Positions 5,105-38,318 of a stretch of DNA of 64,000 bases are shown piece after piece (the stretch's first letter is position 1; every line of letters starts with the position of its first letter). The notes beneath the pieces are model-generated. The model was not told the origin of the DNA. It was given only the letters and a program-made list of their open reading frames with translations, and made no database searches. The DNA comes from Ornithinimicrobium flavum (lineage in GTDB: Bacteria > Actinomycetota > Actinomycetes > Actinomycetales > Dermatophilaceae). The DNA is taken from NCBI RefSeq assembly GCF_004526345.1, contig NZ_CP038213.1:1488001-1552000 (forward strand). Reading direction: 5' to 3'. The position numbers and the translations under genes are program-made.

Positions 5105-5186
5105 GGTCTCTGTCTATCAGGACGGACCCCGCTGTCGCAGTGAGGCCTGAACGGACACTCTCCCAGGGGGTGTCGTGGGCGAGGAC

Positions 5187-6654: not shown

Positions 6655-7159
6655 ATGCGGCATACCCCGCACTTTCTGATGACGGACCCCGACGAGGTCC
6701 GCCGGCTGATCCGGAACCACCCGTGGGCCACGATCGTGTCGCCGGGCACCACCGGTCTGGTCGCGTCGCACTACCCGGTCATCCTCGACGAGAGCGCCGA
6801 GGGCCCGGACATCACCGTCCTCAGTCACTTCGGCGTCCCGACGACCGGCTGCACGAGCTCGGGCGGCACGAGATCCTGGTCATCGTCCTGGGGCCGCACG
6901 ACTACATCTCGCCCAGCTGGTACGCCCCCGGCGAGCTCGTGCCGACGTGGAACCACGTGACGGCGCATCTCTACGGGACGCCCGAGATCCTCGACGAGGA
7001 GCAGAACTACGCGGCGCTCTCCCTCCTGACCGACCACTTCGAGCGGGGCCGGCCCGGCGGTCGCTCGCCGAGGACGAGCAAGCCACCCGGCGGGAGGCCA
7101 AGGGGGCGGTGAGCTTCCGGATGCGGGTCGACCGGTTCGACGCCCGCGGCAAGCTCAGC
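6655..7159 (+). pseudogene. PaiB-like FMN-binding regulator, copy 1 (decayed)
   Basis: First of three PaiB-family copies here (the others begin at 16000 and 38319). It starts after GGAGG as MRHTPHFLMTDPDEVRRLI and is close to copy 2. One base is missing near 6838, and a CTCG tandem is contracted by four bases near 7065. After KLS at 7159 the copy stops matching: the C-terminal 45 or so residues found in the intact copies are replaced by the reverse strand of a MazF-like gene. Copies 1 and 2 also share upstream sequence (GGAGAATGGCTGAA). The four-base slip and the lost C-terminus show a true pseudogene. PaiB proteins are FMN-binding split-barrel proteins linked to transcriptional repression. 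Confidence 0.8.
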
Positions 7160-15796: not shown

Positions 15797-15999
15797 GGCG
15801 GCAAGGACAGCATCGCGTCGGTGTCCGCCGCGAGCAGGCCCACGGGGGGCGGGCCTTGGCCCACCTCTTGGGGAGCATGAAGGACTTCAAGCTAAGGCGG
15901 GCCTCCACCGGGTGGCGCGACACCTTCCTCGACACCGAGGAGAATGGCTGAAACCCAGGACGGGCCGGGGAGACGGCCGCGGACGACGACGGAGGCGAG

Positions 16000-16623
16000 A
16001 TGCGGCATACCCCGCACTATCTGATGACCGACCCCGACGAGGTCCGCCGACTGATCCGGAACCATCCGTGGGCCACGATCGTCTCGCCGGCCAGCACCGG
16101 TCTGGTCGCGTCGCACTACCCGGTGATCCTCGACGAGAGCGCCGACGGCCCGGACATCACGATCCTCAGCCACTTCGGGCGACCGGACGACCGGCTGCAC
16201 GAGCTCGGGCGGCACGAGATCCTGGTCATCGTCCAGGGGCCGCACGACTACATCTCGCCCAGCTGGTACGCCCCGGGCGACCTCGTCGCGACCTGGAACC
16301 ACGTCACCGCACACCTCTACGGGACGCCCGAGATCCTCGACGAGGAGGAGAACTACGCGGCGCTCTCCCTGCTGACCGACCACTTCGAGCGCGACCGGCC
16401 CGGCGGGCGCTCGCTCACGGAGGACGAGGCGGCCACTCGGCGGGAGGCCAGGGGTGCGGTGAGCTTCCGGATGCGGGTCGACCGGTTCGACGCCCGCGCC
16501 AAGCTCAGCCAGAACAAGACCCCGGAGGTCGTCGACAACGTCATCGTCCATGTGGGGGAGCACAACCCCGGTCTCGCCGAGGAGATGCGGCGCGTCCGGG
16601 AGGCTTCACGCGGGGGGCGCTGA
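16000..16623 (+). CDS. PaiB-like FMN-binding negative regulator, copy 2
   Basis: A 207-residue protein of the PaiB family, related to FMN-binding split-barrel proteins; Bacillus PaiB represses sporulation and protease genes. It starts MRHTPHYLMTDPDEVRRLIR six bases after GGAGG. Typical family segments are HPWATIVSP, LVASHYPVILDE, GPHDYISPSWYA, VPTWN/VATWNHVTAHLYG and FRMRVDRFDARAKLSQNK. It is intact, unlike copy 1 at 6655, and shares an upstream block with it. Copy 3 at 38319 has diverged slightly. No paiA acetyltransferase neighbour is present. A duplicated palindromic 20-mer follows the stop codon. Confidence 0.87.
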   Translation: MRHTPHYLMTDPDEVRRLIRNHPWATIVSPASTGLVASHYPVILDESADGPDITILSHFGRPDDRLHELGRHEILVIVQGPHDYISPSWYAPGDLVATWNHVTAHLYGTPEILDEEENYAALSLLTDHFERDRPGGRSLTEDEAATRREARGAVSFRMRVDRFDARAKLSQNKTPEVVDNVIVHVGEHNPGLAEEMRRVREASRGGR

Positions 16624-16703: not shown

Positions 16704-16745
16704 TCAGAGGCGGACGACGCGCGTCGCGCGGTCGCGGAGGGGTCC
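16704..16745 (-). pseudogene. Displaced 3' end of a nucleoside-kinase gene
   Basis: The minus strand encodes PLRDRATRVVRL and a stop. The intact kinase at 17065-17739 ends ALRDGATRVVRL and a stop. The nucleotide match is imperfect, so this is a diverged second copy of the gene's 3' end, separated from it by the hairpin repeat and a vapC stub. Confidence 0.5.
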
Positions 16746-16931
16746 AAGAGGAAATATCGCGGATCGTCGATCAACAAGCCTGATCGACGATCCGCGATAT
16801 TCGTCTGCTGACGGGTGTTCCCCTGCAGCCTCAGAGGAGGGACCCACCGGCGCACGGCAGCGTCCCGCAGATCTCGTCACGCGGAAGTCGCGCACGTCCC
16901 CGACTGTCGCGTGACGAGGATCACGGGACGC
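16739..16931. repeat. 193-bp two-hairpin repeat, copy A
   Basis: About 90% identical to copy B at 27131-27324 and in the same orientation. Hairpin 1 has two perfect 21-bp arms (16753-16773 and 16781-16801) around the loop ACAAGCC. Its arms are AT-rich at the outer end and contain GATCGTCGATC, itself a palindrome. Hairpin 2 (about 16859-16931) pairs GCGTCCCG with CGGGACGC and TCGTCACGCG with CGCGTGACGA around a short inner stem. Both structures are retained in copy B. It is not a simple terminator: there is no T tract and it is far too long. A mobile palindromic element or structured RNA is possible. Confidence 0.85.
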
Positions 16932-16940
16932 GCGGGGAGC

Positions 16941-17063
16941 GGGCATCGTGCGCGCCTGAACCTCGGCGACACGTTCGCCTACGCGCTGCACCGGGTCACC
17001 GGTGAGCCGATGCTCTTCACGGGCGGAGACTTCGCAGCGGCGGGTGTGGAACGGGCCAGGTGA
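16941..17063 (+). pseudogene. VapC-type PIN toxin, 3' fragment only
   Basis: A 40-residue fragment reads RARLNLGDTFAYALHRVTGE then PMLFTGGDFAAAG, the final catalytic part of VapC toxins (LGDxFAYALA...PLLFxGxDF), and ends with TGA. The first 90 or so residues and any antitoxin gene are absent; the hairpin repeat lies immediately upstream. It is a toxin-antitoxin relic. Confidence 0.65.
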
Positions 17064-17064
17064 C

Positions 17065-17739
17065 TCACAGCCGCACGACGCGCGTCGCTCCATCCCTGAG
17101 GGCCTCTATCGCGACCGCGTTGTCGTGGTCCGGCCCGGACGCCCGCTCGTGCGCCCGCGCAGGGTCCTCGCCGTGCCGGACGTGCCGCTCGACCAGCCGC
17201 GACTCACGCACCGCCGGGTCGAGGTCGAGGAACCACACCTCGTCCAGGGCAGCGCAGGCCCGCGGCCACGCGCCGGTGCGGGCGAGCAGGTAGTTGCCCT
17301 CGGTGACCACGAGCGGCACAGACGGAGAGATGGGCAGGGCTGAGCCGATCGAGGTCTCGAGGTCGCGGTCGTAGCGCGGGGCGTAGACGACCTCGTCCGC
17401 CGCCTGGGAGCGCAGGCGGGTGAGGAGAGCGGCATACCCGGCGTCGTCGAAGGTGTCGATGGCGCCCTTGCGGCCGCGGGCCCCGCGGGCGTGCAGGATC
17501 GCGTCGTCGAGGTGGAAGCCGTCCATCGGCGCCAGCGCGACCAGCTCGGGCCCCAGCTCGTCGGCCAGGGCCGCGGCGACCGTCGACTTGCCGGCGCCGG
17601 GCGCCCCGGTCAGCCCGAGGATGGTGCGTCCGGGGCGCGCTGCGAGGCGGCGGGCGTCCTCGACCAGCGTGGCGAGCGTGTCCGGAGGTGGCTCGAGGGC
17701 TGCGGCGGGACCGGCAGCGTCCTCAGGAGGAGACGTCAC
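17065..17739 (-). CDS. Nucleoside/sugar kinase of the uridine-kinase-like P-loop family
   Basis: A 224-residue P-loop kinase. Walker A is GLTGAPGAGKSTVAAAL (about residues 41-57), followed by LAPMDGFHLDD (substrate side) and VVTEGNYLL, then a lid with ERHVRHGEDPARAHER. This matches the family that includes uridine kinase, pantothenate kinase and YggC/FrcK-like sugar kinases. The GTG start overlaps the xylulokinase stop (GTGA), so it is the last gene of the polyol operon, and a sugar substrate is more likely than uridine. A diverged copy of its last 12 codons lies at 16704-16745. Confidence 0.8.
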   Translation of the reverse strand: MTSPPEDAAGPAAALEPPPDTLATLVEDARRLAARPGRTILGLTGAPGAGKSTVAAALADELGPELVALAPMDGFHLDDAILHARGARGRKGAIDTFDDAGYAALLTRLRSQAADEVVYAPRYDRDLETSIGSALPISPSVPLVVTEGNYLLARTGAWPRACAALDEVWFLDLDPAVRESRLVERHVRHGEDPARAHERASGPDHDNAVAIEALRDGATRVVRL

Positions 17740-19178
17740 TGCCGCACGCCGTGCACGGTGGCGAGGAGCTCGGCATACCGGCCCTTGATCTCCTCCACCG
17801 ACGGGTCGAGGACCGGCTCCGCGCCGACGACGGTGTCCACCGCCGCCCACTGCGGGCAGGTCTCCTCGCCGGAGAGCACCCAGGCGGCCTGGAGCGCGGC
17901 GCCGCGGGCGACGTACTCGCCGGGACGGGGCACGACGAGCGGGACGCCGATGAAGGTCGCGGCGATCTCCCGGACGGCTGCCGACCCCGTCGCGCCGCCG
18001 ATGAGGAGGACCCGGTCGACGTCCACCCCCTCGCGGCGGAGGGCGTCGACGCCGGCGGCGACGTTGAGCAGCATGCCCTCGACGAAGGCCCGGGCCACGT
18101 TGGCGGGGGTGAGGTTGTCGCGGGTCATGCCGGACAGGGTGCCGCTCGCCGTCGGCAGGTTGGGGGTCCGCTCGCCGTCGAGGTAGGGGAGCAGGGTGAG
18201 CCCGCCCGCGCCGGGCTGCGCCTCGAGCGCCAGCCGCTCGAGCCCGGCCAGGTCCGTGCCGAGCGCCGTGGCCCCGGCGCCCAGCACGCGGGCGGCGTTG
18301 AGCGTGCACATGAGCGGCAGATGACCCCCGGCGGCGTCGGCGAAGCCGGCGACCTCGCCCGTGGGGTCCGAGGTGGGCCGTGGGTGCGAGGCGAAGGCGG
18401 TGCCGCTCGTGCCCAGCGAGACGGCCACGTCCCCGCCGCCCAGGCCGAGCCCCAGCGCCGCCGCCGCGTTGTCGCCGGCGCCGGGTCCGACCACCAGACC
18501 CCCGGGGCCGACCAGGCCTCCCGGGCTCCGGCCGGCAGCGGTGGCGGGGCCGAGCACCTCCGGCAGCTCGAGGTCGCCGCGGCCGGTCGCCAGGCGCAGG
18601 AGGTCTTCGTGGTAGGCGTCGGTGGAGGCGGAGAAATAGCCGGTGCCGGACGCGTCGGACCGGTCGGTGACCCACCTGCTCACCGGTGCGTCGCCGGCGA
18701 GCAGCCGGCTCGTCAGCCAGTCGTGCGGCAGCACGACGGTGCGCGTGCGCGCCAGGGAGTCCGGCTCGTTGCGGGCCAGCCAGCGCAGCTTGGTGACGGT
18801 GATCGCGGCGACCGGCACGACGCCGATCGCCTCCGCCCACGCCTGCGGTCCGCCGAGCTCGTCGATGAGGTCGAGCGCGTCCGGGGCCGACCGGGTGTCG
18901 TTCCAGAGCAGCGCCGGGCGGACCACCTGCTGGTCCTCGTCGAGGCACACCATGCCGTGCTGCTGACCGGCGACGGAGATCGCCGACACTCCCTCCAGCA
19001 ACCCACCGGAGGTCGCCTCGTGCAGGGCGCTCCACCAGTGGTCAGGGTGCACCTCGGTGCCGTCGGGATGGGACGCGCGGCCGGTGCGCACCACCTCGCC
19101 GGTGCGGGCTTCGCAGACCATCACCTTGCACGACTGCGTGGAGCTGTCGACCCCGGCGACCAGGGTGGGGGCGTTCAT
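17736..19178 (-). CDS. xylB: Xylulokinase
   Basis: A 480-residue FGGY-family kinase that phosphorylates D-xylulose to xylulose 5-phosphate for the pentose-phosphate pathway. It starts MNAPTLVAGVDSSTQSCKVM with the N-terminal DxxTxxxK-type phosphate motif, then ISVAGQQHGMVCLD, the xylulokinase GQQHG motif, WNDTRS, GAGDNAAAALGLG and LLIGGATGSAAVREIAA near the C-terminus. Length is normal for XylB. ATG 19178 is chosen because GAGG precedes it and the extra upstream residues do not fit the family. It lies in the polyol operon between the dehydrogenase genes and the small kinase, so it receives the ketose they produce. Confidence 0.92.
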   Translation of the reverse strand: MNAPTLVAGVDSSTQSCKVMVCEARTGEVVRTGRASHPDGTEVHPDHWWSALHEATSGGLLEGVSAISVAGQQHGMVCLDEDQQVVRPALLWNDTRSAPDALDLIDELGGPQAWAEAIGVVPVAAITVTKLRWLARNEPDSLARTRTVVLPHDWLTSRLLAGDAPVSRWVTDRSDASGTGYFSASTDAYHEDLLRLATGRGDLELPEVLGPATAAGRSPGGLVGPGGLVVGPGAGDNAAAALGLGLGGGDVAVSLGTSGTAFASHPRPTSDPTGEVAGFADAAGGHLPLMCTLNAARVLGAGATALGTDLAGLERLALEAQPGAGGLTLLPYLDGERTPNLPTASGTLSGMTRDNLTPANVARAFVEGMLLNVAAGVDALRREGVDVDRVLLIGGATGSAAVREIAATFIGVPLVVPRPGEYVARGAALQAAWVLSGEETCPQWAAVDTVVGAEPVLDPSVEEIKGRYAELLATVHGVRQ

Positions 19179-19185
19179 CAGTGCC

Positions 19186-20250
19186 TCAGTCCTCCCAGAC
19201 GATGCAGACCTTGCCCGCCTGCCCACCGTCGGCGACCTCGTAGGCCGCGCCGGCCTCGCTCAGCGGGTAGCGATGGGTCACGATCCTCTCAGGATGCTCG
19301 CCCCACCGCACGAGCATCTCGAGCAGCTCGGCCATGTGCTGCACCGACGACACCCACGACCCGTGCACGCTGATCTGCGGGTGGATGAGCAGCGGCGAGA
19401 CGTCCATCGTCATCGTGCCGCCCTCGCCCACCAGGACGCACCGACCCCAGTGCCGGGTATGCCGCAGCGCGGCCAGTCGGGCGTCGGGGTGGCCGGAGCA
19501 GTCGATCGCCACCTCGCAGCCCCGGCCGTCGGTGGCCGAGCCGACCGCCTCCGCCAGGTCGGCCGGGTCGGTCACCGCCACGTCGAGCAGGTCCAGGCGC
19601 TGGGCCAGCTCCACCCGGCTGGCGACGGGGTCCATACCGATGACCCGGCGGGCGCCGAGGTGACGGCCCAGCAACGCCGCCGCCAGCCCGACCGGCCCGA
19701 GGCCGGTGACCAGGAGCGTGTCGCGGCCGCTGACCTGGCCTCTGAGCAGGCCCTCGTAGGCGGTGCCGAAGCCGCAGGAGACCAGCGCCCCGTCGACGAA
19801 GGTCAGCGGCTCGGGCAGCAGCAGGCAGCTGACCTCCTCGGCCAGCAGGTAGTCGGCGTGCCCGCCGTCGCGCTGCCAGCCGTGCGCCGCCCGGTGCTCG
19901 GAGGAGCACCCGACGGGGTAGCCGCGGCGGCACTCCTCGCACTGGCCGCACCCGCTGATGTGGTAGACGACGACCCGGTCGCCGGGGGAGAGCCGACGGG
20001 CTCTCGGCCCCACGGCGACGACCTCCCCGCACGGCTCGTGTCCGGCGACGACACCCTGGTAGGCCTCGGCGCCGACGCCGAGGTGCTCGCGGTAGATCGC
20101 CCGGATGTCCGACCCGCAGATGCTCGAGGCGCGCATCTTGAGCAGCACCTGGCCCGGCCCCGGCTCGGGCACGTCGACGGTGACGTGCTCGACGGTGGAG
20201 TCGCCCGGGAGCCGGACGCCGCGCATGGTGGAGGGCAGGGTCGTCGGCAC
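19186..20250 (-). CDS. Zinc-dependent medium-chain dehydrogenase (polyol dehydrogenase-like)
   Basis: A 354-residue MDR enzyme. The catalytic zinc ligands are present ([18 protein letters not shown]), as is the structural zinc loop with four cysteines ([17 protein letters not shown]). The Rossmann motif [13 protein letters not shown] is followed by IGMDPVASR, where an acidic residue at the end of the second strand favours NAD. It should oxidise a secondary alcohol of a sugar or polyol. It sits seven bases upstream of xylB and just after a second zinc dehydrogenase, so a polyol or sugar derivative is the likely substrate; the exact one cannot be read from sequence. Confidence 0.88.
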
Positions 20251-20257
20251 GTGTTCC

Positions 20258-21306
20258 TCAGCTCTGGGGGTGGATCATCGACTTGATGGCCCGCGGGTCG
20301 TCCGTCGCCGCGGTGAGCGCCTCGGCGGTCTGGTCGAGCCGGAAGTGCCCGGTGACGAGGTCGTCCAGCCGCACCTGCCCGCAGCGAGCAGAGCGATGGC
20401 CGTGGGCCAGGTGTTGGCGTAGCGGAAGACCCCGGTCACCAGGAGCTCGCGCTCCTGGACGAGCGAGAGCGGCAGGGCGAGGGTGTCGCCGCCCATGCCG
20501 ACCAGCACGGCCCGCCCGGCCGGGGACAGCGACCGCAGACCGGCCAGCGTCGAGCCGGCGTGGCCGCTGCACTCCAGCAGCACGTGGGGGTCGGGGCGCT
20601 CGCCGTACCAGTCGGGCAGCGACACCTCGCTGGCGTCCACCGTGTCCGTGGCACCGTGCGCGGCCGCGACCGCGAGCCGGTGCGGGTTGACGTCGACGAC
20701 CACGACCTCGGCCGCACCCGCCACGCGCGCCACCTGGGCGCAGAGCAGCCCGACCGGCCCGGCCCCGGTGACGAGCACGCGGTCGCCGGTGCCGACGGCG
20801 GCCTTGCGGCAGGCCCACAGCGCGACCGAGAGCGGCTCGACCATCGCGGCGGCGTCGTCCCCCACCTCGTCCGGCACGGGGTGGGCGAAGGCGGAGTGGT
20901 GCACGATGAGCTCGCTGAGCGAGCCGTCGACCGGCGGGGTGGCGTGGAAGACCATGGCCGGGCACAGGTTGTAGCGACCGGACAGGCACTGCTCGCACTG
21001 CCGGCACGGCACGCCGGGCTCGATCGAGACCCGCTGCCCGACGCGGGCGGGGTCCACGTCCGCGCCGACGCCGACGATGACCCCGGCCGACTCGTGACCG
21101 AGGACCAGCGGCGCCGTCACGGCATACGAGCCGATCCGTCCGTGCGTGTAGTAGTGCGTGTCGGACCCGCACACCCCGACCGAGGTGACCTGGATGAGGA
21201 CCTCGTCGTGCCCGGGCTGCGGGCGCGGGCGCTCCTGGACCTGGATCGTGCCGGGCTCGAGCAGGACGGCGGTCCGCGTCGTCCCGCGGTCGTCAGCCGT
21301 TGACAT
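20258..21306 (-). CDS. Sorbitol/L-iditol dehydrogenase-like zinc dehydrogenase, one-base frameshift
   Basis: An MDR enzyme of about 348 residues starting [20 protein letters not shown]. It has [11 protein letters not shown] and GHESAGVIV (zinc site), four cysteines in [17 protein letters not shown] (structural zinc), and [14 protein letters not shown] (NAD fold), as in sorbitol and xylitol dehydrogenases. The frame breaks near 20384, where GCGGGCAGGTG lacks a C expected in LLAAGQVRLDD. The correct C-terminus ([19 protein letters not shown]) continues in another frame to 20258. The rest is well conserved, so this may be a sequencing slip. Its start overlaps the mannitol-type dehydrogenase gene by 14 bases. 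Confidence 0.78.
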
Positions 21307-22789
21307 GGTCCTCCAGGGTCGCGCGGGCACCCTTGTCGTGCAACGACCGGAGGAACCCGAGGTATGCGGTGGTGAACCGCTCGTCGTGCCGCAGGTCGCC
21401 GAAGAAGGACTCGTCCTCGAGGAAGGCGAGCGGCTCCTCGCGCTGCCGCGCGGCCGCCGCCATCACCGTGTCCCTGAACCGGTCGACCACCTCGATCGGC
21501 TCGCCCTGCTCGTCCACCCCCTCGGCATACCGGGCCCAGGAGGCGACGACGAGCGCGGAGGAGTCGATCCGGCCGCCGCGCTCGAGGTTGTGCCGGATCA
21601 CCGGCACCAACCACTTCGGTATGCGGTCGCTGGACTCCGCGCACAGGCGCGCCAGGGTGTCGCGCACCTCGGGGTTGGCGAAGCGGTCGATGAGCTCGCG
21701 GCGGTAGGCGTCGAGGTCGACGCCCGGGACCTCGGGCAGGGTGGGCGTGCCCTCGTGCTCCATGTAGCCGAGCAGGAACGTGACGAAGAGCGGGTCCTGG
21801 CAGACCTCGTGGGCGTAGCGGTAGCCGGCGAGGTAGCCGAGGTAGCACAGCGCCTGGTGGCTGGCGTTGAGCAGGCGGAGCTTCATCAGCTCGTAGGGGA
21901 CGACGTCGTCGACGACCTGGGCGCCGGCTGCCTCGAAGGCGGGGCGTCCGGTGGGGAAGGAGTCCTCAAGCACCCACTGGGTGAACGGCTCGCAGACCAC
22001 CGGCCACGCGTCCTCCACCCCGAACTGCTCGGCCAGCGCCGTGATGTCCTCCTGGCTGGTCACCGGGGTGATGCGGTCGACCATCGAGCTGGGGAACGCG
22101 ACGTGCTCGGCGAGCCAGGGGGCCAGCGGCTCGCTGCCCGGCGAGCGGTCGTCCTGCAGAGCTGCGAAGGCGCCGATCATCGCCCGGGCGACGTCGCCGT
22201 TGCCAGGCAGGTTGTCGCAGGAGAGCACGGTGAACGGCTCGGTCCCGGCCGCCCGGCGCCGGCGCAGCGCCTCGCAGATGAAGCCGAATGCGCTGCGCGG
22301 GGTGCCGGGGGAGTCGAGGTCGGCCTGCAGGGCCGGGTCGTCGGGGTCGAAGCGGCCGGTCACCTGGTTGACGTGGTAGCCGCCCTCGGTGATGGTCAGG
22401 GAGACGATCCGGACCCGGGGGTCGACCATGGCGGCCAGCACCGCCTCGGGGTCGTCCGGGGCGAAGAGGTAGTCGACCATGGAGCCGATGACCCGCGGCT
22501 CCAGCCTCCCGTCAGGATGCTTGAGCACCAGCGTGTAGAGGCAGTCCTGCCCCTTGAGGGCGTCGCGCATGCGGACGTCGCCGGGCATCGTGCCGACCCC
22601 CACGATCGCCCAGTCGGAGTCGCGGCCGTCCTCCATGAGACGGTCGAGGTACATCGCCTCGTGCGCCCGGTGGAAGCCGCCGACGCCGAGGTGGACGATG
22701 CCGGGGGTCAGGGTCGAGCGGTCGTAGGTGGGCCGGGCCACCGTGTGGGGCAGCTCGTCCAGGGTCTCGTCGCTGAGGGGGACCGGCAT
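21293..22789 (-). CDS. Mannitol/polyol dehydrogenase (long-chain family)
   Basis: A 498-residue member of the mannitol 2-dehydrogenase/fructuronate reductase family, which oxidises mannitol, arabinitol or sorbitol to the ketose with NAD. Visible are GIVHLGVGGFHRAHEAMYLD (nucleotide-binding loop), SLTITEGGYHVN, SCDNLPGNGDVA and KLRLLNASHQALCYLG, the KxxxLNxxH catalytic motif. Length is as expected. ATG 22789 overlaps the stop of the upstream permease (TGATG), so translation is coupled. With xylB downstream, D-arabinitol or a similar pentitol giving xylulose is plausible, but mannitol is not excluded. Confidence 0.9.
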   Translation of the reverse strand: MPVPLSDETLDELPHTVARPTYDRSTLTPGIVHLGVGGFHRAHEAMYLDRLMEDGRDSDWAIVGVGTMPGDVRMRDALKGQDCLYTLVLKHPDGRLEPRVIGSMVDYLFAPDDPEAVLAAMVDPRVRIVSLTITEGGYHVNQVTGRFDPDDPALQADLDSPGTPRSAFGFICEALRRRRAAGTEPFTVLSCDNLPGNGDVARAMIGAFAALQDDRSPGSEPLAPWLAEHVAFPSSMVDRITPVTSQEDITALAEQFGVEDAWPVVCEPFTQWVLEDSFPTGRPAFEAAGAQVVDDVVPYELMKLRLLNASHQALCYLGYLAGYRYAHEVCQDPLFVTFLLGYMEHEGTPTLPEVPGVDLDAYRRELIDRFANPEVRDTLARLCAESSDRIPKWLVPVIRHNLERGGRIDSSALVVASWARYAEGVDEQGEPIEVVDRFRDTVMAAAARQREEPLAFLEDESFFGDLRHDERFTTAYLGFLRSLHDKGARATLEDHVNG

Positions 22790-23652
22790 CACCGCACGGC
22801 GCCCATGGACAGGCCTGTGACCAGCTTGTCCTGCGCGGCGAAGCCGGCGGCCAGGACCGGGACCGAGACGACCAGGCTGGCCGCGCAGACCTGCGCCAGG
22901 AACAGGCCCTGGCTGGTGACGAAGCCGGTGAGGTAGACGGGCGCGGTCTGGGCGACGGTGCTGGTCAGGACGCGGGCGAGGAGCAGCTCGTTCCAGCTGA
23001 AGATGAAGCAGATGAGCGCCGCCGCGGCGATGCCGGGCATCACGACCGGGGCGATCACCTGGCGCAGGGTGGTCGTCAGGTTCGCCCCGTCGATCTGCGC
23101 CGCCTCGATCATCTCCACCGGAACCTCCGCGAGGAACGAGCGCAGCATCCAGATGGCGATCGGCAGGTTCATCGACGTGTAGAAGATGGTGAGCAGCACG
23201 ATGTTGTCCAGCAGCCCGGAGAACTGCGCGAACAGGTAGATCGGCAGGATCGCGGCGACGATCGGCAGCATCTTGGTGGAGAGCATGAAGAACAGCACGT
23301 CCTGCCACTTCTTCACCGGTCGGATCGACAGCGCGTAGGCCGCCGGGAAGGCCAGGAGGATGACCAGCGCCGTCGACAGCACGCTGGCGGTCAGGGAGTT
23401 GAGCAGCGGCCCCCACGGGTCCGCCCCGAAGAAGTTGCGGTAGCCCTCCACGCTGAAGGGGGCGAACAGCTGCGGCGGGTTGGTCGCCGCATCCGTCTCG
23501 CTCCGGAAGGACACCAGCACCATCCACAGGAACGGGATGAAGAAGAGCAGGCCGATCGCCCAGGCCAGGATCGCCAGGCCGAGGCCCTGGCGACCGGCCT
23601 TGTCGCGGAACGGCGACCGACGCTGGCTCGGGGGCTTCAGGGCGATGGTCAT
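22789..23652 (-). CDS. Sugar/polyol ABC transporter permease (MalG type)
   Basis: A 287-residue inner permease with six predicted membrane segments. It has the ABC permease EAA loop (EMIEAAQIDGANLTTTLRQV), which docks the ATPase, and a MalG-like start with LFFIPFLWMVLVSFRSETDA. Start and stop overlap both neighbours by four bases. It should form the membrane channel with the next gene. No ATPase gene is found in the operon, so a shared MsiK-type ATPase encoded elsewhere is likely, as in other actinomycetes. Confidence 0.92.
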   Translation of the reverse strand: MTIALKPPSQRRSPFRDKAGRQGLGLAILAWAIGLLFFIPFLWMVLVSFRSETDAATNPPQLFAPFSVEGYRNFFGADPWGPLLNSLTASVLSTALVILLAFPAAYALSIRPVKKWQDVLFFMLSTKMLPIVAAILPIYLFAQFSGLLDNIVLLTIFYTSMNLPIAIWMLRSFLAEVPVEMIEAAQIDGANLTTTLRQVIAPVVMPGIAAAALICFIFSWNELLLARVLTSTVAQTAPVYLTGFVTSQGLFLAQVCAASLVVSVPVLAAGFAAQDKLVTGLSMGAVR

Positions 23653-24596
23653 CGTGACTCCTCCTGGAAGACGGTGAAGACGGTCCGGAGGGCGAGCATC
23701 GACACGATGAGGGTGCCCGCCACCGTGACCACGCCGGCTGCCGAGGCGCGGCCGTAGTCCTGTGCGGTGTAGAAGGTCTGGTAGACGAAGTAGGGCAGGT
23801 TGGCGCTGCCGGTGGCGCCGGCCGTGATGGTGAAGACGTGGTCGAAGTTCTGCACCACGTAGATGGTGCCGAGCAGCACGCTGAGCTCGATGTAGGGGCG
23901 CAGGTGCGGCAGCGTCATGTGCCGGAAGATCTGCCAGCTGCTCGCGCCGTCGATGCGCGCCGCCTCGACGACGTCCATCGGCCGGCTCTGCAGCCCGGCC
24001 AGCAGGATGAGCATCATGAACGGCGTCCACTGCCAGGAGATCGCCGCGATCAGGGCCGGCAGCGGCATGCTGCCGACCCAGTCGGGCTGGGGGGCGTCGT
24101 CGCCGAGGAAGATGGTGAGCAGGCCGTTGAACAGGCCGTACTCGGGGTTGTAGAGCGCGTGCTTCCACAGCAGGGCCGCCGCGATCGGCACCAGCAGGAA
24201 CGGCGTGATCATCATCGTGCGCACCACGCCGCGGCCGGGGAACTTCCGGTCCAGCAGGAGCGCGATGACCAGACCCAGGATGAGGCAGATGAGCACCACG
24301 CTCACGGTCAGGACGACGGTGACGACCACCGCCGAGCGGGCGTTGACGTCCGTGAAGACCCGTGCGTAGTTGCTGAACCCGGCGAACCCGCGGTCGTCCG
24401 GGTAGTAGGAGTTCCAGTCCATGAACGAGACGATCAGCGTGCCTATGAACGGCAGCTGGGTCAGCACGATCACGAAGATCAGGGCGGGCAGCAGCGGCAG
24501 CCGGCGGCGCCACGTCTCCGACATCCCGCTCTGCCGTCGCTCGGCGGGCGGTGGTGCCCCCGTCCGGACGGCGTCGGCGGCCACTTCGGTGCTCAT
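23649..24596 (-). CDS. Sugar/polyol ABC transporter permease (MalF type)
   Basis: A 315-residue permease with a cytoplasmic N-terminus followed by six hydrophobic segments (LLPALIFVIVLTQLPFIGTL first). The EAA loop is DVVEAARIDGASSWQIFRHM. It has the usual partner pattern of a MalF-type subunit beside a MalG-type one. ATG 24596 overlaps the stop of the binding-protein gene (ATGA). It serves the polyol import system of this operon. Confidence 0.92.
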   Translation of the reverse strand: MSTEVAADAVRTGAPPPAERRQSGMSETWRRRLPLLPALIFVIVLTQLPFIGTLIVSFMDWNSYYPDDRGFAGFSNYARVFTDVNARSAVVVTVVLTVSVVLICLILGLVIALLLDRKFPGRGVVRTMMITPFLLVPIAAALLWKHALYNPEYGLFNGLLTIFLGDDAPQPDWVGSMPLPALIAAISWQWTPFMMLILLAGLQSRPMDVVEAARIDGASSWQIFRHMTLPHLRPYIELSVLLGTIYVVQNFDHVFTITAGATGSANLPYFVYQTFYTAQDYGRASAAGVVTVAGTLIVSMLALRTVFTVFQEESR

Positions 24597-25990
24597 CGGT
24601 CGCGCTCCTCTCGTGCCTCGTAGCGTTCGGCGATGTCCTCGGCCAGCTGCTGGCCCTGGGCGAGGGCGTCCTCGACGCTCATCCGTCCCGCGATCGCGGC
24701 GCTGATGTCCTGGCTGACCTGGGTGCCGAGCTCGGGGAACTCGGGCAGGCCGATGAACTGGATGCCCATCGCGGGCCGGGGCTGCAGGCCGGGGTTCTCC
24801 GGGTCGGCGGCCTCGATCGCCTGCCTGGTCGGCTCGGCGAACGCTCCCGCGACCTCGAGGTAGTCGGGGTTCTCGTAGGTGGAGGCCCGCTTGCCGGACG
24901 GCACCTGGGCCCACCCGACCTGCTCGCCGACCAGCTCCTCGTACTCCTTGCTCGAGGCCCAGGAGATGAACTCCCACGCGTCGTCCTTGTTCTCCGAGGC
25001 TTCCTGGACCGCGAACGACCAGGCGTAGAGCCACCCGGAGCTGTCCGTCTCGACCACCGGTGCGGGCGCGTAGCCGAGCAGGCCCTGCACGGGGGAGCCG
25101 TCGGCCTCGAGCGAGCCGGCGGCCGAGGTCGCGTCGTACCACATCGCCGAGTTGCCCTGCGTCAGGTTGTTGAGGCACTCGACGAAGCCGGAGTTGGGCG
25201 CGCCGCGCTGACCGTGCTCACGCACCAGGTCGACGTAGAAGGTGACGGCCTCGGTGAACTCCGGCGAGTTGACCATCGGTGTCATCCCGCTCGTGGAGTT
25301 CTGCTCGTCGGACTCGAACCAGGTGCCGCCGAAGGTGTTGACCACGGTGGTCAGAGGGGCGAAGATCTGGCCCCAGCCGGGCTGCCCGCGCAGACAGATG
25401 CCGGACATGCCGGGCTCGGCCCCGTCCACCTGGGCGGCGATGTCGGCGACCTCCTGCCAGGTGGGCTGCTCAGGCATCGCGATGCCCTCACGGTCCAGGA
25501 TGTCCTTGCGGTACATCAGGAACGACGACTCGCCGTAGAACGGCTCCCCGTAGACGCTGCCGTCGACCGTCAGCGACGTCGTCATCGGCGCGAGGATGTC
25601 GTCCTGGTCGAAGTCCGGGTCGCCGGCGATGTAGTCGTCGAGGTTGGCGACCCACCCGGCCCGCGCGTAGATCGGGATCTCGAAGTTGGAGAGGGTGGCC
25701 ACGTCATACTGCCCCGACTGGCTGGTGAACTCCTGGCTGACCCGGTCGCGGAGGTCGTTCTCCGGCAGGATCGTGTAGTTGACCGTGATCCCCGTCTCGG
25801 CGGTGAAGTGCTCCTCGGTCAGCCGCTGGAGATCGGCCATCTGCGGGTTGTTCACCATGATCACGTTCAGTGACCCCTCCGCCCCCGAGCCGCCACCCGC
25901 CCAGCCCAGGGTGCAGGCGCTGAGCGAGAGCGAGGCGGCGAGGGACAGGGCCAGCGCCGTCGTGGTCCGTGCCCGTCTGCGTCGTTGCAC
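24593..25990 (-). CDS. Polyol/sugar ABC transporter substrate-binding lipoprotein
   Basis: A 465-residue family 1 extracellular binding protein. The twin-arginine-rich start MQRRRRARTTTALALSLAAS leads to the lipobox LSAC, so the mature protein is anchored to the membrane. The body has the MalE/SmoE-like fold: VIMVNNPQMADLQRLTEEHF, VDGSVYGEPFYGESSFLMYR, AMWYDATSAAGSL and AWEFISWASSKEY. The best resemblance is to sorbitol/mannitol-binding proteins, which fits the dehydrogenases downstream. It is the first gene of the eight-gene operon and diverges from the SorC-type regulator, with an operator-like dyad between them. Confidence 0.9.
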   Translation of the reverse strand: MQRRRRARTTTALALSLAASLSLSACTLGWAGGGSGAEGSLNVIMVNNPQMADLQRLTEEHFTAETGITVNYTILPENDLRDRVSQEFTSQSGQYDVATLSNFEIPIYARAGWVANLDDYIAGDPDFDQDDILAPMTTSLTVDGSVYGEPFYGESSFLMYRKDILDREGIAMPEQPTWQEVADIAAQVDGAEPGMSGICLRGQPGWGQIFAPLTTVVNTFGGTWFESDEQNSTSGMTPMVNSPEFTEAVTFYVDLVREHGQRGAPNSGFVECLNNLTQGNSAMWYDATSAAGSLEADGSPVQGLLGYAPAPVVETDSSGWLYAWSFAVQEASENKDDAWEFISWASSKEYEELVGEQVGWAQVPSGKRASTYENPDYLEVAGAFAEPTRQAIEAADPENPGLQPRPAMGIQFIGLPEFPELGTQVSQDISAAIAGRMSVEDALAQGQQLAEDIAERYEAREERDR

Positions 25991-26009
25991 TGTCTCTCCC
26001 CTTCGTCGG

Positions 26010-26042
26010 GCTCAAACGAGCAACTGTCGTGCACGCTTGAGC
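26010..26042. promoter_or_regulatory. Operator-like inverted repeat between the polyol operon and its regulator
   Basis: GCTCAAACGAGCA (26010-26022) and TGCACGCTTGAGC (26030-26042) are inverted copies matching at 11 of 13 positions around seven bases. The dyad lies 20 bases upstream of the binding-protein start in the divergent promoter region. It is the likely binding site of the SorC-type regulator. Confidence 0.6.
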
Positions 26043-26132
26043 GCAGGTGATCGAGTCAACTATCTTTCTGCTGGGGTGTCAAGGCCTTCCCGACGCCGTG
26101 GGTCGGGATCCCGGACGGAGAGGCGGCAGGCG

Positions 26133-27077
26133 ATGGGGCGAGGAGACGTCTTGGGCTCGGGTGAGCGGCGTGCTGCTGCCGCCGTGGCGCGTCGGTACTA
26201 CCTGGACGGCGAGTCCAAGGTCGACATCGCGGCCGAGCTCGGCCTGAGCCGCTTCAAGGTCGCCCGCCTGCTGGACCTGGCCAAGGAGGCCGGGATGGTG
26301 CGGATCGAGATCGTCGAGCCGGTCGAGGAGCAGATGCTCGAGCTCGCGGCACGGGTCAGCAGCAGGTGGGGCCTGCGCGAGTGCTGGGTCGTGCCCGGCT
26401 CGGCCACGGCGCAGCTGGACGTCGCGCGGGCAGCGGCCGAGCTGCTGGGCAGGCTGCTCGGCCCGCAGGACGTGCTGGGTATGCCGTGGAGCCGGTCGGT
26501 GCACGCCATGGTCGACTCCCTGGTCACGCTGCCGCGGGTGCCGATCGTGCAGCTCAGCGGCGCGGCGGCGACAACCTCTGTGGACAGCAGCACGGTCGAC
26601 ATCGTGCGTCGCGCGTCCCGGATCGCCGGTGGTGGGCGGCAGGTCTTCTTCGCACCTCTGGTCATGCCCGACGAGCAGGCGGCCGAGGCGGTGCGCCGTG
26701 ATCCCGCGGTGCGCGACACCCTGGCCGCCGCGAGCACCGTGACGGTGGCGATGGTGGGCATCGGGGCCTGGGCTCCGGGGGAGTCGACCATCTACGACCT
26801 CGTCGACGAGGCGGCCCGTGACGAGGTGGTCGCCGTCAACACCGTCGGCGAGATCGCCGGGGTCTTCTTCGACGAGCAGGGGCGTCTCGTCGAGCCTCCC
26901 CTCTCCCGGAGGGTGATCGCGCTGAGCGGGGAGCAGCTCGTCGGGATTCCCACGGTGCTCGCCAGCTGTCACCAGCTGTCGCGGATGCCGGCGCTGGTTC
27001 CTGCGTTGCGAGGGGGACTCGTCAACGCGCTCGTCGTCACGGCAGAGATCGCGGACGCGCTGCTGGACGTCCCCTGA
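26133..27077 (+). CDS. SorC/DeoR-type sugar-binding transcriptional regulator
   Basis: A 314-residue regulator. The N-terminal helix-turn-helix reads ARRYYLDGESKVDIAAELGL then SRFKVARLLDLAKEAGMVRI, the hallmark of SorC-family proteins. The C-terminal sugar-phosphate-binding domain includes LLGPQDVLGMPWSRSVHAMV, QLSGAAATTSVDSSTVDIVR, TVAMVGIGAW, VNTVGEIAGVFFDEQG, and IALSGEQLVGIPTVLAS. Such proteins are released from or recruited to DNA by phosphorylated sugars. It is divergent from the polyol operon and separated from it by the dyad at 26010-26042, so local control is expected. Confidence 0.9.
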   Translation: MGRGDVLGSGERRAAAAVARRYYLDGESKVDIAAELGLSRFKVARLLDLAKEAGMVRIEIVEPVEEQMLELAARVSSRWGLRECWVVPGSATAQLDVARAAAELLGRLLGPQDVLGMPWSRSVHAMVDSLVTLPRVPIVQLSGAAATTSVDSSTVDIVRRASRIAGGGRQVFFAPLVMPDEQAAEAVRRDPAVRDTLAAASTVTVAMVGIGAWAPGESTIYDLVDEAARDEVVAVNTVGEIAGVFFDEQGRLVEPPLSRRVIALSGEQLVGIPTVLASCHQLSRMPALVPALRGGLVNALVVTAEIADALLDVP

Positions 27078-27130
27078 CACGGCTCGGCGAGCGTCCCCGG
27101 CAACGGCGCGTGCTCGAGCGAGGAGGCACA

Positions 27131-27324
27131 GGGGTCCGTGAGGAAATATCGCGGATCGTCGATCAACGAGCCTGACCGACGATCCGCGATATTCGTCCGC
27201 TGACGGGTGTCCCCTGCCGCCTCAGGGAGGAGGGACCCACCGGCGCACGGCGGCGTCCCGCAGATCTCGGCACGCGGAAGTCGGACACGTCCCCGACTGT
27301 CGCGTGACGAGGATCGCGGGACGC
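27131..27324. repeat. 193-bp two-hairpin repeat, copy B
   Basis: Direct copy of the element at 16739-16931, with a few substitutions and small indels. Hairpin 1 arms are 27145-27165 and 27173-27193, with one A-C mismatch and a 7-base loop. Hairpin 2 occupies about 27252-27324, also with about one mismatch. It lies 53 bases after the SorC-type regulator and 43 bases from the end of jetD. The polyol module therefore sits exactly between the two copies. Confidence 0.85.
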
Positions 27325-27367: not shown

Positions 27368-28594
27368 CTACGGGCTGCCGAGCGCGTCGAGCAGGGCGCC
27401 CAGGACCGTCTCCTCGTGCACGGCCCGCCCGTGCCGGCGCATCGCCGCACCCAGCTCCGGGTCCCAGGAGGGCTCGACCGGCGCCCCCACCAGCTCCGGG
27501 CCGCCCATGGTCAGCCCGGCCAGGTAGTCGTCCACGCTCATCCGCCACGGCCGCACCCCGTGCCGGGCGACCGCCCGCTCGGCCAGCGCGACGCCGGGCC
27601 AGTCGAAGTCGCCGTGGTAGCGCAGGTCCGCCCCGGCCGCGGCGAGCAGGCCGAGCACCTCGTCCACGACCAGGTTGGGCTCGCCCGCGGTGCACACGAC
27701 CGCCCAGCCGTCGATCGAGCTCTCGGCGACGGCCTCCAGCACGCGCGGGTTCTCGCACACCAGGACCGGCCGGTCGACGACCGGGACCACGGCATCGGCG
27801 CGGCGCAGGTCCCACGCGGTCACGTGCACCGGATCGCCGGCCGCAGCCGCGCTGGCCAGCCGCCGGGCGAGCGGGTCGTCGCCCACGAGACGCAGACGCC
27901 ACAGCAGGCAGGTGCGCGAGACCAGGTCGGGAGCCACCCCGACCGCCGCCCACAGCTCCTCCCGCCCCCGGGCGGACGCCGGGACGGCCACACCGGCCGC
28001 GGCGGCCAGGCCGCGGAGCACCACGTGGTGGACGACATTGTCCCGGTCCAGGGCGTGGGCGTCCCCGAGCAGCCGCGCACCCAGCTCGACCCGGGAGACG
28101 GTATGCCGTGCCGACCCCGGTGCGGGCAGCGCGCCGAGGACGGCCGCCGCCCCGCGCACGACCTGCTCCGCGTCGGGCCGAGACGTCAGCACGCCCGTGC
28201 GCCGCAGGCCGGCCACCCACTCCTGCGCCCACGGCGTGCGGACCAGCTCGGCGGCCAGGGCCAGCGGCGTCTCCCGGGCGGTGTCCCGGGCCGCGCGGGA
28301 GGCCGGGCGGTCCCGCGGGGCGCTCCCGGTGACGAGGGTGAGCACCTCCAGGAGGCCGCCGACCCCGGACCGCTCGCGCAACCGGGCGTCCAGCGCGTCC
28401 AGGGCGACCCGCTGCCGGTCCCGGACGGTGGTGCGGCCGAGCAGGGCGGCGAGCGCCTGCCGCTCCACGCGCGTGGCGGGAGCGAGCACGACATACCCCT
28501 GCGGCTCGAGCCCGGCCTGCTCGAACCGGTCCCGGATGCGCGCCCACGTGGGGCCGAGCGCGGCGTCGGCCAGCCACGGGGGCAGGTCGCTCAC
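27368..28594 (-). CDS. jetD: Wadjet type II nuclease subunit JetD (TIGR02679, DUF2399)
   Basis: A 408-residue protein with a DUF3323-like N-terminal part and a C-terminal DUF2399 domain of Toprim type. The expected acidic residues are visible: VLVCENPRVLEAVAES (Toprim glutamate, about residue 280) and YHGDFDWPGVALAERAV (DxD pair, about 330). In Wadjet systems JetD cuts DNA of circular plasmids after extrusion by the JetABC motor. The GTG start overlaps the jetC stop. Copy B of the hairpin repeat lies 43 bases downstream. The call rests on the complete four-gene arrangement as well as on the motifs. Confidence 0.85.
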   Translation of the reverse strand: MSDLPPWLADAALGPTWARIRDRFEQAGLEPQGYVVLAPATRVERQALAALLGRTTVRDRQRVALDALDARLRERSGVGGLLEVLTLVTGSAPRDRPASRAARDTARETPLALAAELVRTPWAQEWVAGLRRTGVLTSRPDAEQVVRGAAAVLGALPAPGSARHTVSRVELGARLLGDAHALDRDNVVHHVVLRGLAAAAGVAVPASARGREELWAAVGVAPDLVSRTCLLWRLRLVGDDPLARRLASAAAAGDPVHVTAWDLRRADAVVPVVDRPVLVCENPRVLEAVAESSIDGWAVVCTAGEPNLVVDEVLGLLAAAGADLRYHGDFDWPGVALAERAVARHGVRPWRMSVDDYLAGLTMGGPELVGAPVEPSWDPELGAAMRRHGRAVHEETVLGALLDALGSP

Positions 28595-31500
28595 CCCACG
28601 CTCTCCAGGGTCCGGCCGTCCCAGCGGTACTCGTACTGGGCGATGCCCCGCTGCGCCGGGTCGCGCAGCGCCTCGTAGATCGCCAGCGACGGCACGGTCG
28701 GGTGGTCGCCCCACAGCCGCTCGCTGGTGATGACGAAGTCCAGGTCGAGCTGGACGAGGAGACCGAAGAGCAGCGGGTGGGTGCGCACGTCGATCTTGGG
28801 GAAGGCGTCGTCGAGGAGGACGAGACGCGGGGCGTGGGGCGCGGCGCCGGCCAGCGAGGTGAAGTGCGCGGCGGCGGCGGCGAAGAGTGGCAGGTAGCAG
28901 AGCACCTTCTGCTCCCCCTGGGACAGCGGCGAGCGGCGGTGCAGCCGCTCCCACCGGCCCAGGGCCTCGGGGCGGGTGTAGCGGATGGTGAACGCGAACC
29001 ACGTGCGGTAGTCCAGCGCGGCGGCCAGGTGCTCGGAGTAGGACAGCTCGGGGTGCTCGGCGCGGGAGGCCTCGATGAGGCGGTGCAGCGCGTCGTGGAG
29101 CTTGGCCCGCTCCTCGGGCAGCAGCGCGCCGACCGGCTGGGTGAGCAGGTCGACGGCCTCGCGCGCCTCGGCGGCGACGTCGTCGCGCAGCTTCCAGTCC
29201 AGCCGTACCCGGATGCCCTGGGACGTGGTCACGTGCCCGAGCTGGGCGTTCATCGCCTCGACCAGCTCCTGGGCGTCGCGCCGGCAGCGCCGCAGGGTCT
29301 CGCCGAGCTCGCCGAGGACGTGCCGCTCGAACTGCTGGCGCTCCCGCCTCGTCAGCAGCTCCCGGTCGCGCTCCACCCCCGCCGCCACCCGACGGGCCAG
29401 GGCCGTCACCGCGGCCTCGCCCGCCTCGTCGCGGCCGGAGACGGTATGCAGCTCGCCCAGGGTCGCCAGCGCGGGCTGGTGCTCGGCCGCGGGCCCGCTG
29501 GTGGCGCTGCTGTGGCGCTCGTAGAGGCGGGTGGTCACGGAGGGCACCTCGGCCTCGCTGAGCCCGGTGAGGGCGCGGGCGGCGGTCACGGAGGCGCGGG
29601 GGACGGGCGCCGTGGGGTCCAGCGCGGCGAGGGCCAGCAGCGCGTCGGTGGACTCCGGGGCTACCTCGGCCGCCTCGCCCAGCCCGTCCACCCGCAGCGC
29701 CTCGACGAGGGCGGCGAGGGTGGCTGCGCGGGTGTCGGCGTGGTCGGCGAGGCGCTGCCGGGCCGCGTCGACGCCGGTGCGACCCTGACCGAGCTCCACC
29801 AGCAGGTCCTCGAGCGACCGGCGGGAGGCGACGACCGTGCGGCGGTGCTCCTCGAGGGTCGTCCGGGTGGCCGTGATCCGGCGGTCGAGCTCGGCGACGG
29901 AGTCGCCGACGCTGGAGCGCAGCTCCTCGTGCGCGGCGGCGGCGACGTCCGCCCGCCGGCGTGCCTGGTCGGCCGCCGCCTCGTCGGCCTCCTGGGTCTG
30001 CACGGAGAGGGCGTGGTCGTCGGCGGCGCGGGACCAGGTGGCCAGCAGCCCCCGGACGTGCGGGACCTGGCGGTCGAGGTCGCGCAGGTCCACGGCCAGG
30101 GCTCGCAGCGCCTCCTCGACCGCGTCGAGGGCGGTGCGCTCGGGCGGCAGGTCGTGCTCCGTGGCGATGCGCCGCAGCTCCTCGGCGAGGCGGGCGGTCT
30201 CTGCCCGCGCGGCCTGGGCGGCCGACTGCGCCCGCTGGTTGTGGCCCTCCTCGCGCTGCTCGGTCTCCAGCAGCAGCTCGGCGCGCTGCCAGGCGGAGAG
30301 CAGGTCCCGCCCGCTGGGCACCGCGGCCACCCACGCCTCCAGGGCGGTGACGCCGGCACCGGCCTCGGCCCGCTCCCGCTCGCTGCGCTCCAGCTGCTGC
30401 TGCTGCGCGGCGATCTCGGCGTCCAGGGCGGCCAGTCTCCGGGCGCGCTCCGCGGCCCGGGCGGGGGCGCCGACGTACTGCGCCAGGTCCTTGCCGGCGT
30501 GGCCGTGGGCCGGCCCGAGGCGCCAGGAGCCGTCCGTGCCGATGCGAGGACCCGGACCGTCGCTGCCCAGCCCGATGCCGCCCAGCACCGCCGCGACGTC
30601 GGACTCGGCGACGTCGCTGCCCTCGGGCAGGTCGACGACGAGGGTCTGCGCCAGGGACGGCGAGACCGGCGGACCCGCGACCAGCACGATGTCGCGCAGC
30701 CCCGCGTCCAGCAGCCGTCCGCCGGGTCGGACCCAGGCGTCGAGCAGCCCCGAGGCCTGCAGCGCCGCCTCCAGGCCGGCACGTTCCTCCCGCGAGAGGT
30801 GGTCGGCGAAGTCGACGACCTGCCACAGGGCCGACCCGTCCGGCCGGGCGGCGCGGGGGAGGGGAGGCGGTGGGGGTGCCGGGTCGCGCTCGGACTCGAC
30901 GGTCGCGCGTTGGGTGTGCAGCAGCCCGAGCTGCTCCTGGGCGGTCCGGGCGGCGGCCCCGGCGCGCGCGCCCGTCTCGCGCAGCTCGGCCAGCCGTGGT
31001 CCGGCGGCTCCGGCCGCGAGCCGACCGAGGTCGCCGACGGCCTGAGGGGTCAGCTCGGCCGGCAGGGCCACCTCCGGCGTGCCCTCCGCACCCGCCCAGC
31101 CGGTGAGTGCGTCGAGCAGCAGGTCGACCTGCCGGTCGGCCTCGACCTCGGCCTCCGTCCGCAGGGACCGGGCCTCCTCCCAGCGGGCCTCCGCCTGCTC
31201 CGCCTCCCGCTCGGCCCCCGACTGGCGGACCTCGGCGTCGGCGAGAGTCTCGGCCGCCCCACGCACGACGCCCACGCCGGCCCGCCGTCGGGTGACCGCC
31301 GAGGTGGCGTCGGAGAGCGCGTCGGCGAGCTGGTCCAGGCCCGCGGCGACCGGGCCCCCGGCGACCACGTCGGCGGCGGTCCCGGGCTCGTCGGTGAGCG
31401 ACTGCGCGGTGAGGGTGGTCGTGAGGGAGACGTCGTGCACGGTGCGCCGCAGCCCGTCGGCGGTGGTCCGCACCGCGGCGGACAGCTGGTCGAGCGTCGC

Positions 31501-38287: not shown

Positions 38288-38318
38288 TGGTGCCCGAGGA
38301 CGACGACGGAGGCCCGGG

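Follow-up and report, generated by a model that had tools for sequence, protein, structure and literature searches.

Two direct copies of a composite palindrome bracket a polyol gene module in Ornithinimicrobium flavum, and one of its halves belongs to a palindrome family found around a putative nuclease gene

The window analysed here, a 64,000-nucleotide stretch of the genome of Ornithinimicrobium flavum (NZ_CP038213.1, positions 1,488,001 to 1,552,000), contains a polyol gene module that lies between two direct copies of a repeat. Each repeat is a composite of two palindromes, A and then B, and B belongs to a family that is dispersed in the genus and also brackets the gene of a putative nuclease. 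The repeats and their hairpins are as follows.

16739..16931, + strand: repeat copy 1, composed of palindromes A and B (alignment, BLAST)
27131..27324, + strand: repeat copy 2, direct relative to copy 1 (alignment, BLAST)
16753..16801, no strand: hairpin A of copy 1, 21-bp perfect arms and 7-nt loop, 80.7 bits with covariance model R2
27145..27193, no strand: hairpin A of copy 2, 21-bp arms with one mismatch and 7-nt loop
16860..16931, no strand: hairpin B of copy 1, 72 nt, ends GCGTCCCG...CGGGACGC
27253..27324, no strand: hairpin B of copy 2, 72 nt, ends GCGTCCCG/CGGGACGC

Alignment and BLAST both confirmed the two repeats at the positions and in the common orientation given by the original prediction, which had put their identity at about 90%. 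They are slightly closer than that: the 193- and 194-bp sequences are 11 substitutions and 3 indel positions apart, and BLAST gives 93% identity. Hairpin A, with arms of ATATCGCGGATCGTCGATCA in each repeat, has the predicted arm and loop lengths, being perfect in copy 1 and having one broken pair in copy 2, and hairpin B, predicted to be 73 bases long, has the predicted ends and a measured span of 72 nt. Similarity ends at both edges of the repeat, with no homology beyond it, and the right edge coincides with the end of hairpin B; with edges this sharp, the repeat is a discrete unit. The folding z-scores of the two copies were -8.4 and -6.2 (0 of 200 shuffles equally stable). Two copies were recognised in the window's genome (3.71 Mb): BLAST, with all 33 candidates scored, matched at the two repeat sites only, and the covariance model of B detected no third site among the best 150 of about 6500-6700 first-look candidates, the number scored in each model search of this genome. 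Beyond the two repeats, the model of A gave two chance-level matches there (E 0.06 and 0.53).

Gene coordinates bear out the predicted placement of the repeats just outside the last kinase gene and the gene of the SorC-type regulator, with the 10-kb unit between them.

16000..16623, + strand: left neighbour, FMN_bind_2 gene, converging on copy 1 (family scan, gene calls)
17065..27077, mixed strands: bracketed polyol module (family scan; DNA homology to the genomes G001, G025 and G002)
27368..35428, - strand: right neighbour, Wadjet type II jetD-jetC-jetB-jetA, converging on copy 2 (PADLOC)

Both copies thus occupy the convergent gaps beyond the outer ends of the terminal module genes, copy 1 between the ends of the FMN_bind_2 gene (16623, + strand) and the kinase gene (17065, - strand), and copy 2 between the ends of the SorC-type gene (27077, + strand) and jetD (27368, - strand). 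The module encodes the kinase, zinc and mannitol dehydrogenases, ABC permeases and a binding protein on the - strand and the SorC-type regulator (26133-27077) on the + strand; the family scan left out the gene at 17736-19178. To the right, JetA2, JetB2, JetC2 and JetD2 were all matched by PADLOC and are contiguous on the - strand, as a four-subunit Wadjet type II operon.

A homologous polyol module is present in three relatives, where DNA homology covers window positions of about 27064-17065 (G001), 27080-17063 (G025) and 17072-26874 (G002), stopping at or just inside the terminal genes; the first zinc dehydrogenase is missing from the modules of G001 and G025. The outer flanks of these three modules share no repeat: their best Smith-Waterman scores were 14.5, 13.0 and 14.5, compared with 159.5 for the window and a maximum of 20.5 for random pairs (up to 300). 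Since the operon occurs without the repeats in three relatives, the repeats are not part of it, and a role as a component of the polyol operon is ruled out. The original prediction had named two observations that would count against it. One of them, the polyol operon without flanking repeats, was thereby made; the other, the repeat occurring only as an ordinary terminator without covariation, was not. The exact bracketing of the module by direct repeats might suggest a composite transposon or insertion sequence, the repeats being the ends that brought the module in as one unit. However, the three relatives have the module without any such ends, and no target-site duplication is obvious by eye at either window copy. 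A nearby transposase had also been suggested as a sign to look for, but no Y1_Tnp (PF01797) transposase, the one transposase family searched for, is encoded in the window's genome, whereas 5 of the 14 genomes used as controls gave matches. We regard this origin as very unlikely.

The surroundings of the repeats hold further similarities. The genome G003 carries a fragmented version of the window's Wadjet operon (94.6% identity), about 2 kb from an FMN_bind gene and with neither polyol module nor repeat between. Window positions 2081-7159 match a G003 region (L117, 1-5087) at 97.8% identity over 5 kb, although the two genomes are only 83% identical in a conserved gene elsewhere; this stretch may reflect either recent transfer or a chimeric bin. 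In G001, a short jetD-like stretch (L112, 18988-19050; 84% over 64 bases) is located some 3 kb past the kinase end of the module, so that the polyol module and a possible Wadjet remnant may share a neighbourhood there too. Within the window, the FMN_bind_2 gene or its remnant occurs three times (6651-7159, 15996-16623 and 38315-38939; about 88-93% alike over most of the length), and a second gene is duplicated at 7669-9051 and 40570-41955.

BLAST of 58 genomes, including the window's own, located copies of B in G016 and of A in G013, G027 and G004, with A and B occurring apart, and a 29-base match in G049. The covariance-model search of related genomes, which the original prediction had proposed, extended both families: at E <= 0.001, model R1 (for B) matched in 17 and model R2 (for A) in 10 of the 31 genus genomes. 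With the best 150 candidates scored per genome these counts are lower bounds, and several of the weaker matches may be other palindromes. We compiled 63 B sites, window included, at E <= 1e-3, where weak ones may be due to chance; one of them, L137 (G019), looks like a different palindrome. According to gene calls made with a codon-usage script, 31 sites were in tandem, 21 in convergent and 5 in divergent gaps, and 6 within a called gene. Forty-nine sites had an exact 40-nt core, and in the 47 distinct cores 92.7% of the pair cells were standard. Cells changed on both sides numbered 34, compared with 15.2 in shuffles (0 of 500 as high), a count of related sequences and not of independent events; pairs with a double change numbered 8, compared with 5.7 (30 of 500 as high). 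B is a dispersed, covarying palindrome family of Ornithinimicrobium, and its covariation shows only across the genus. The two window copies differ from each other by several single stem changes and no double compensatory change, so the retained pairing that had been taken as a sign of selection does not provide one here.

A structured RNA, another nature suggested for the repeat, is not supported: no Rfam 15 family matched in the window at the gathering threshold, and B occurs in tandem, convergent and a few divergent gaps. The palindromes could also be bidirectional terminators, akin to insulators of the repetitive extragenic palindrome (REP) type, at convergent gene ends, the window pair having arisen by local duplication or gene conversion. 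Both window copies indeed lie in convergent gaps, divergent gaps are under-represented among intergenic B sites (5 of 57 compared with 98 of the 334 gaps in the same fetched regions; P 0.0006), and the covariation would suit an RNA hairpin as well. However, five B sites do lie in divergent gaps, and no T-run follows hairpin B on either strand of either copy when read by eye, so the U-run that together with a GC-rich hairpin marks an intrinsic terminator is missing. Among the window hairpins scored, those of this strength were confined to the two repeat-bearing convergent gaps. A single orthologous gene end was informative as well. The gene beside the B copy of G003 was found in 30 of the 31 genomes, and its 3' region could be read in 28 of the 30 fetched loci; a B-type palindrome was present in only three of these 28 (G003, G016 and G001). 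In G016 and G001 it comes on top of a separate short hairpin farther on, G000 and G013 have only a short hairpin of this sort, G004 has fragments that are possibly a decayed B copy, and the remaining genomes have none or other hairpins. B therefore varies by presence and absence at an orthologous gene end, which weakens the idea of an ordinary terminator only. Cognate copies also lie upstream of the nuclease gene described next, and we consider the terminator explanation unlikely.

Nine B loci in nine genomes adjoin genes of one protein family (297-402 aa). In 5 of 5 members, the N-terminal part was recognised by PADLOC models of AbiEi (best 2.6e-17). Pfam AbiEi_4 was below cut-off in 5 of 9 genus members; among six further members it appeared in two, in L116 well above cut-off (6e-12), and DUF559 was sub-threshold in three. 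A broad family alignment (A6) matched PvuRts1I at E 0.001 through LD...EiDgagH, and the residues E211, D213, D242, E253, H259 and D268 were invariant in 24 of 24 chosen members; the acidic ones would form the active site. The family is probably a fusion of an AbiEi-like N-terminal region with a DUF559/PvuRts1I-like putative nuclease, judged from its motifs to be of the PD-(D/E)XK type. AbiEi/DUF559-type fusion proteins are common in Actinomycetota and their function is unknown. The family was found in 25 of the 31 genus genomes (E <= 1e-6) and, across the order, in 41 of 396 genomes and 22 of 109 genera (E <= 1e-20; best five candidates scored per genome, hence a lower bound). No member was found in IMG/VR viral contigs or in plasmids; among phages, one unannotated record (MT837139.1, 'Bacteriophage sp.', 7.6 kb) has a 46.5% identical relative at 3688-4542. 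In G015, an AbiEi-type family member (L116, 223-1305; hidden Markov model (HMM) E 3e-33) lies directly beside jetA of a Wadjet operon.

To quantify the bracketing, we used 96 unique nuclease loci with long enough flanks, from the genus and beyond, out of 119 fetched (117 with an HMM match), which are part of the database matches. A repeat shared between the 5' and 3' flanks (Smith-Waterman >=18) was present at 74 of the 96 loci, compared with 1 of 81 control genes from the same loci and 2 of 68 genes directly adjoining the nuclease gene (Fisher P 2e-28 against the 81). Strong hairpins on both sides were present at 39 of 96, compared with 0 of 81 and 4 of 68 (P 8e-13 against the 81). An earlier set had given 45 of 59 nuclease loci compared with 5 of 193 controls for the shared repeat, 26 of 59 compared with 1 of 193 for hairpins on both sides, and 47 of 59 compared with 77 of 193 for a hairpin on at least one side, these controls coming from loci chosen for palindromes. 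At most of these loci the nuclease gene is flanked on both sides, upstream as well as downstream, by cognate palindromes, which is the arrangement of a REPtron with an unrelated enzyme.

The palindrome differs between nuclease lineages: it is GTCCCGTGGGAGTCGG in the main genus lineage, GTTCTGGACATAGG in G026 and G028, CGGTCCTGCG in G002, GCTTTGGGTGCCCAG in G280, TTCGATGTAAAC in G199 and ACGTCCGCACTCCG in G179. Forty-seven of the 63 B sites are not at nuclease loci, and 40 of these are in genomes with a reference nuclease. For 23 of these 40 dispersed copies the flank of the host's own nuclease was the best match, compared with a permutation mean of 3.2 and a maximum of 22 in 2000 (P 0.0005); ties between G021 and G006 were broken by list order, and the permutation leaves genome relatedness in place. 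In G016, all 12 of 12 dispersed copies match their own nuclease flank best, and the flanks of the same G016 nuclease, out of 12 reference nucleases, are the best match for the window's two B copies. Across the 74 positive loci, the more the nucleases diverge, the less similar their palindromes are (Spearman 0.16, a value attained in 1 of 999 permutations). At L213 and L214 (G028 and G026), a different nuclease lineage goes with a different palindrome; the G026 nuclease lies between genes sized like the MerR-type and PaaN neighbours of the main lineage, which suggests that gene and palindromes were replaced there as a unit.

Dispersal was also seen in a second genus, in an evenly spaced 10% sample of the genome G392 that omits one step. 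There, a distant nuclease relative (914663-915451) lies between palindromes at L344 14519 and 15545, and two more copies of that palindrome lie in L347 and L358 of the sample; none of 179 hairpins in a sample of the genome G248 matched this family. Another G392 hairpin (L340 10631) is similar to the palindrome flanking a nuclease of the same genus. Cognate palindromes are therefore dispersed in intergenic DNA of the same genome, both in Ornithinimicrobium and, for one of its three family members, in G392. The two samples (L320-L359) further contain several palindromes of the type CGTATGCCG...CGGCATACG, in both genomes and perhaps terminators, as well as other small palindrome families without a known partner.

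These data bear on a further explanation, in which the repeats are passive remnants of an unrelated miniature inverted-repeat transposable element, RecA accounts for cargo change, and the link to the nuclease reflects autoregulation and not mobility. AbiEi-type repressors autoregulate by binding inverted repeats, the N-terminal domain of the nuclease is AbiEi-like, and recombination is possible between direct repeats of about 50-190 bp. Nevertheless, autoregulation predicts neither a second copy downstream of the nuclease gene nor genome-wide copies that match the host's own nuclease flank, and we find this explanation rather doubtful.

Two orthologous loci in relatives occur both with a single palindrome and as palindrome-cargo-palindrome. 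Locus 1 spans a MerR-type gene to the nuclease. G030 has one palindrome there, as do G011, G010 and G017 upstream, whereas G021, G006 and G029 have two (P1 and P2) with 1620, 1119 and 73 nt between them. The cargo comprises an AraC-type regulator (Pfam HTH_18 in G006) and a gene that we take to encode a hydrolase. Compared with the flanks of the G030 palindrome, the sequence left of P1 matched on the left at 133/147 (G021), 135/146 (G006) and 146/150 (G029) positions, and the sequence right of P2 on the right at 128/146, 128/146 and 141/149; no such agreement with G030 was seen for the inner flanks of G021 and G006, and in G029 the palindromes are so close that the 150-nt flanks overlap the other copy. 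The 73 nt of G029 weakly resemble the G021 cargo (19.0 compared with a shuffle maximum of 15.0). As would be expected of a crossover that removed cargo, the G030 palindrome has a P1-type left edge and a P2-type loop and right flank, and it looks like the product of such an event. At locus 2, G011 and G028 have one palindrome, whereas G021 has two, with about 1.8 kb and an M48 peptidase gene between them; compared with a single-palindrome genome, its left flank matches at 124/137 and its right side at 287/342 positions, with inner flanks unmatched. The window's repeat-polyol-repeat arrangement has the same anatomy.

We think it probable that the repeats are copies of one composite palindromic element whose B half is REP-like and paired with a nuclease, and that the polyol module was captured at the palindrome. 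This rests on the pairing with the nuclease gene, lineage specificity, dispersal, presence/absence at a gene end and the single/double loci, together with the two direct copies exactly at the module's ends. Each lineage's palindrome would be paired with an AbiEi-DUF559/PvuRts1I-like nuclease gene sitting between two copies, with further copies scattered mostly downstream of genes. The nuclease may bind and cut its own palindrome, or the hairpin formed by it; breaks repaired from other copies would spread the palindromes, which would turn into sites of capture or loss of foreign DNA, and crossover between flanking palindromes, as in the one apparent chimera (G030), would remove cargo. In the window, the 10-kb module may have been captured at an orphan palindrome beside the FMN_bind gene, one direct copy being left at each end, and the pair should still permit excision by homologous recombination. 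We infer both the entry of the module at a palindrome and the part of the nuclease in driving the process. The original interpretation is partly supported. Among the suggested identities, the mobile palindromic element has support as to its kind, in that B is discrete, dispersed, genome-specific, variably present and tied to a nuclease gene, with no Y1_Tnp transposase in the window's genome; the cassette-moving recombination site has homologous examples at the two loci of relatives and would apply to the polyol module by extension.

Several observations weigh against this account. The nuclease was not found in the window's genome (E <= 1e-6), so the window's copies would be orphans, and G013 likewise carries A without a nuclease found. 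Nuclease presence does not clearly separate B-positive genomes (16 of 17, or 15 without the weak match of G003) from B-negative ones (9 of 14), and 22 of the 96 nuclease loci have no shared flank repeat at the threshold. Half-site searches of 400 kb found no copy of the palindrome of another G392 nuclease (L294, one of three members), and none of the palindromes of the two nucleases of G248 in its 10% sample. No partner gene of hairpin A was found near A sites or, with model R2, in 97 nuclease loci (best match E 0.0019, a different palindrome by eye). Among the fetched loci there was no empty site lacking the polyol genes, of the kind the original prediction had proposed to look for. At locus 2, G017 is not easily accommodated, since it has a related M48 gene but a single recognised palindrome and flanks that match poorly; locus 1 is left unrooted by the PaaN tree, so that cargo may have been either gained or lost; and deletion between direct repeats may be passive RecA work that needs no nuclease. 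A more far-reaching version, which we put forward only tentatively, is a widespread actinobacterial selfish system in which the nuclease recognises, multiplies and cuts its own fast-evolving palindrome and metabolic cassettes such as the polyol module are captured and excised between direct copies. A shared, lineage-specific palindrome around 74 of 96 nucleases, with copies dispersed in two genera, provides a testable candidate substrate for the hypothesis of a palindrome-directed nuclease, and a possible route by which catabolic modules are gained or lost at defined sites.

Among known systems, the nuclease resembles the Vsr-like/PvuRts1I/DUF559 nucleases in its core LD...vEiDgagH, which matches PvuRts1I, and in the DUF559 signals, but it is fused to an AbiEi-like N-terminus and flanked by cognate palindromes. 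It resembles AbiEi of type IV toxin-antitoxin systems in its N-terminal region (PADLOC AbiEi and Pfam AbiEi_4) but adds a C-terminal nuclease domain. As with homing endonucleases, its gene lies between copies of a sequence that is also found alone elsewhere; here, however, the site is intact on both sides of the gene, and any cutting or homing would be putative. In the openly licensed PMC literature (CC0, CC BY or CC BY-SA), nothing among the matches listed described AbiEi/DUF559 nucleases with flanking palindromic repeats. The CGTC-tagged REPs of Di Nocera et al. (2013), found mainly in alpha-Proteobacteria, are, according to PMC3733652, likewise palindromic, with CGTC at the start of the stem and no dedicated transposase. 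In that account CGTC is an unpaired tag, whereas in the present family it lies within the stem, and in a single lineage only; there is no evidence of a common origin. The closest parallel is the system of REPs and their associated tyrosine transposases (REP/RAYT; TnpA-REP, REPtrons, REPINs), in which, according to PMC3733652, PMC8266576 and PMC3116915, small dispersed palindromes accompany an enzyme gene flanked by the cognate palindrome. Both systems have palindromes that are small, scattered and mostly located downstream of genes, an enzyme gene between cognate palindromes, repeat-specific pairs and copies elsewhere in the genome; the window's copies without an enzyme gene have a counterpart in species whose REPtron is thought to have been deleted (PMC3733652). 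The differences are that the enzyme here is AbiEi/DUF559-like and not an HUH Y1 tyrosine enzyme (PF01797 having been searched for in the window's genome), that the palindromes, of about 40-76 nt, are longer and are few, with no more than 14 sites recognised in any genome among the best 150 candidates scored, that no GTAG tag was seen, and that the hosts are Actinomycetota. By analogy, the palindrome-nuclease pair may work like a REP/RAYT pair with an unrelated enzyme and putative cleavage, which would provide a second enzyme class for palindromic repeats and would bear on the CGTC REPs described in PMC3733652 as having no dedicated transposase.

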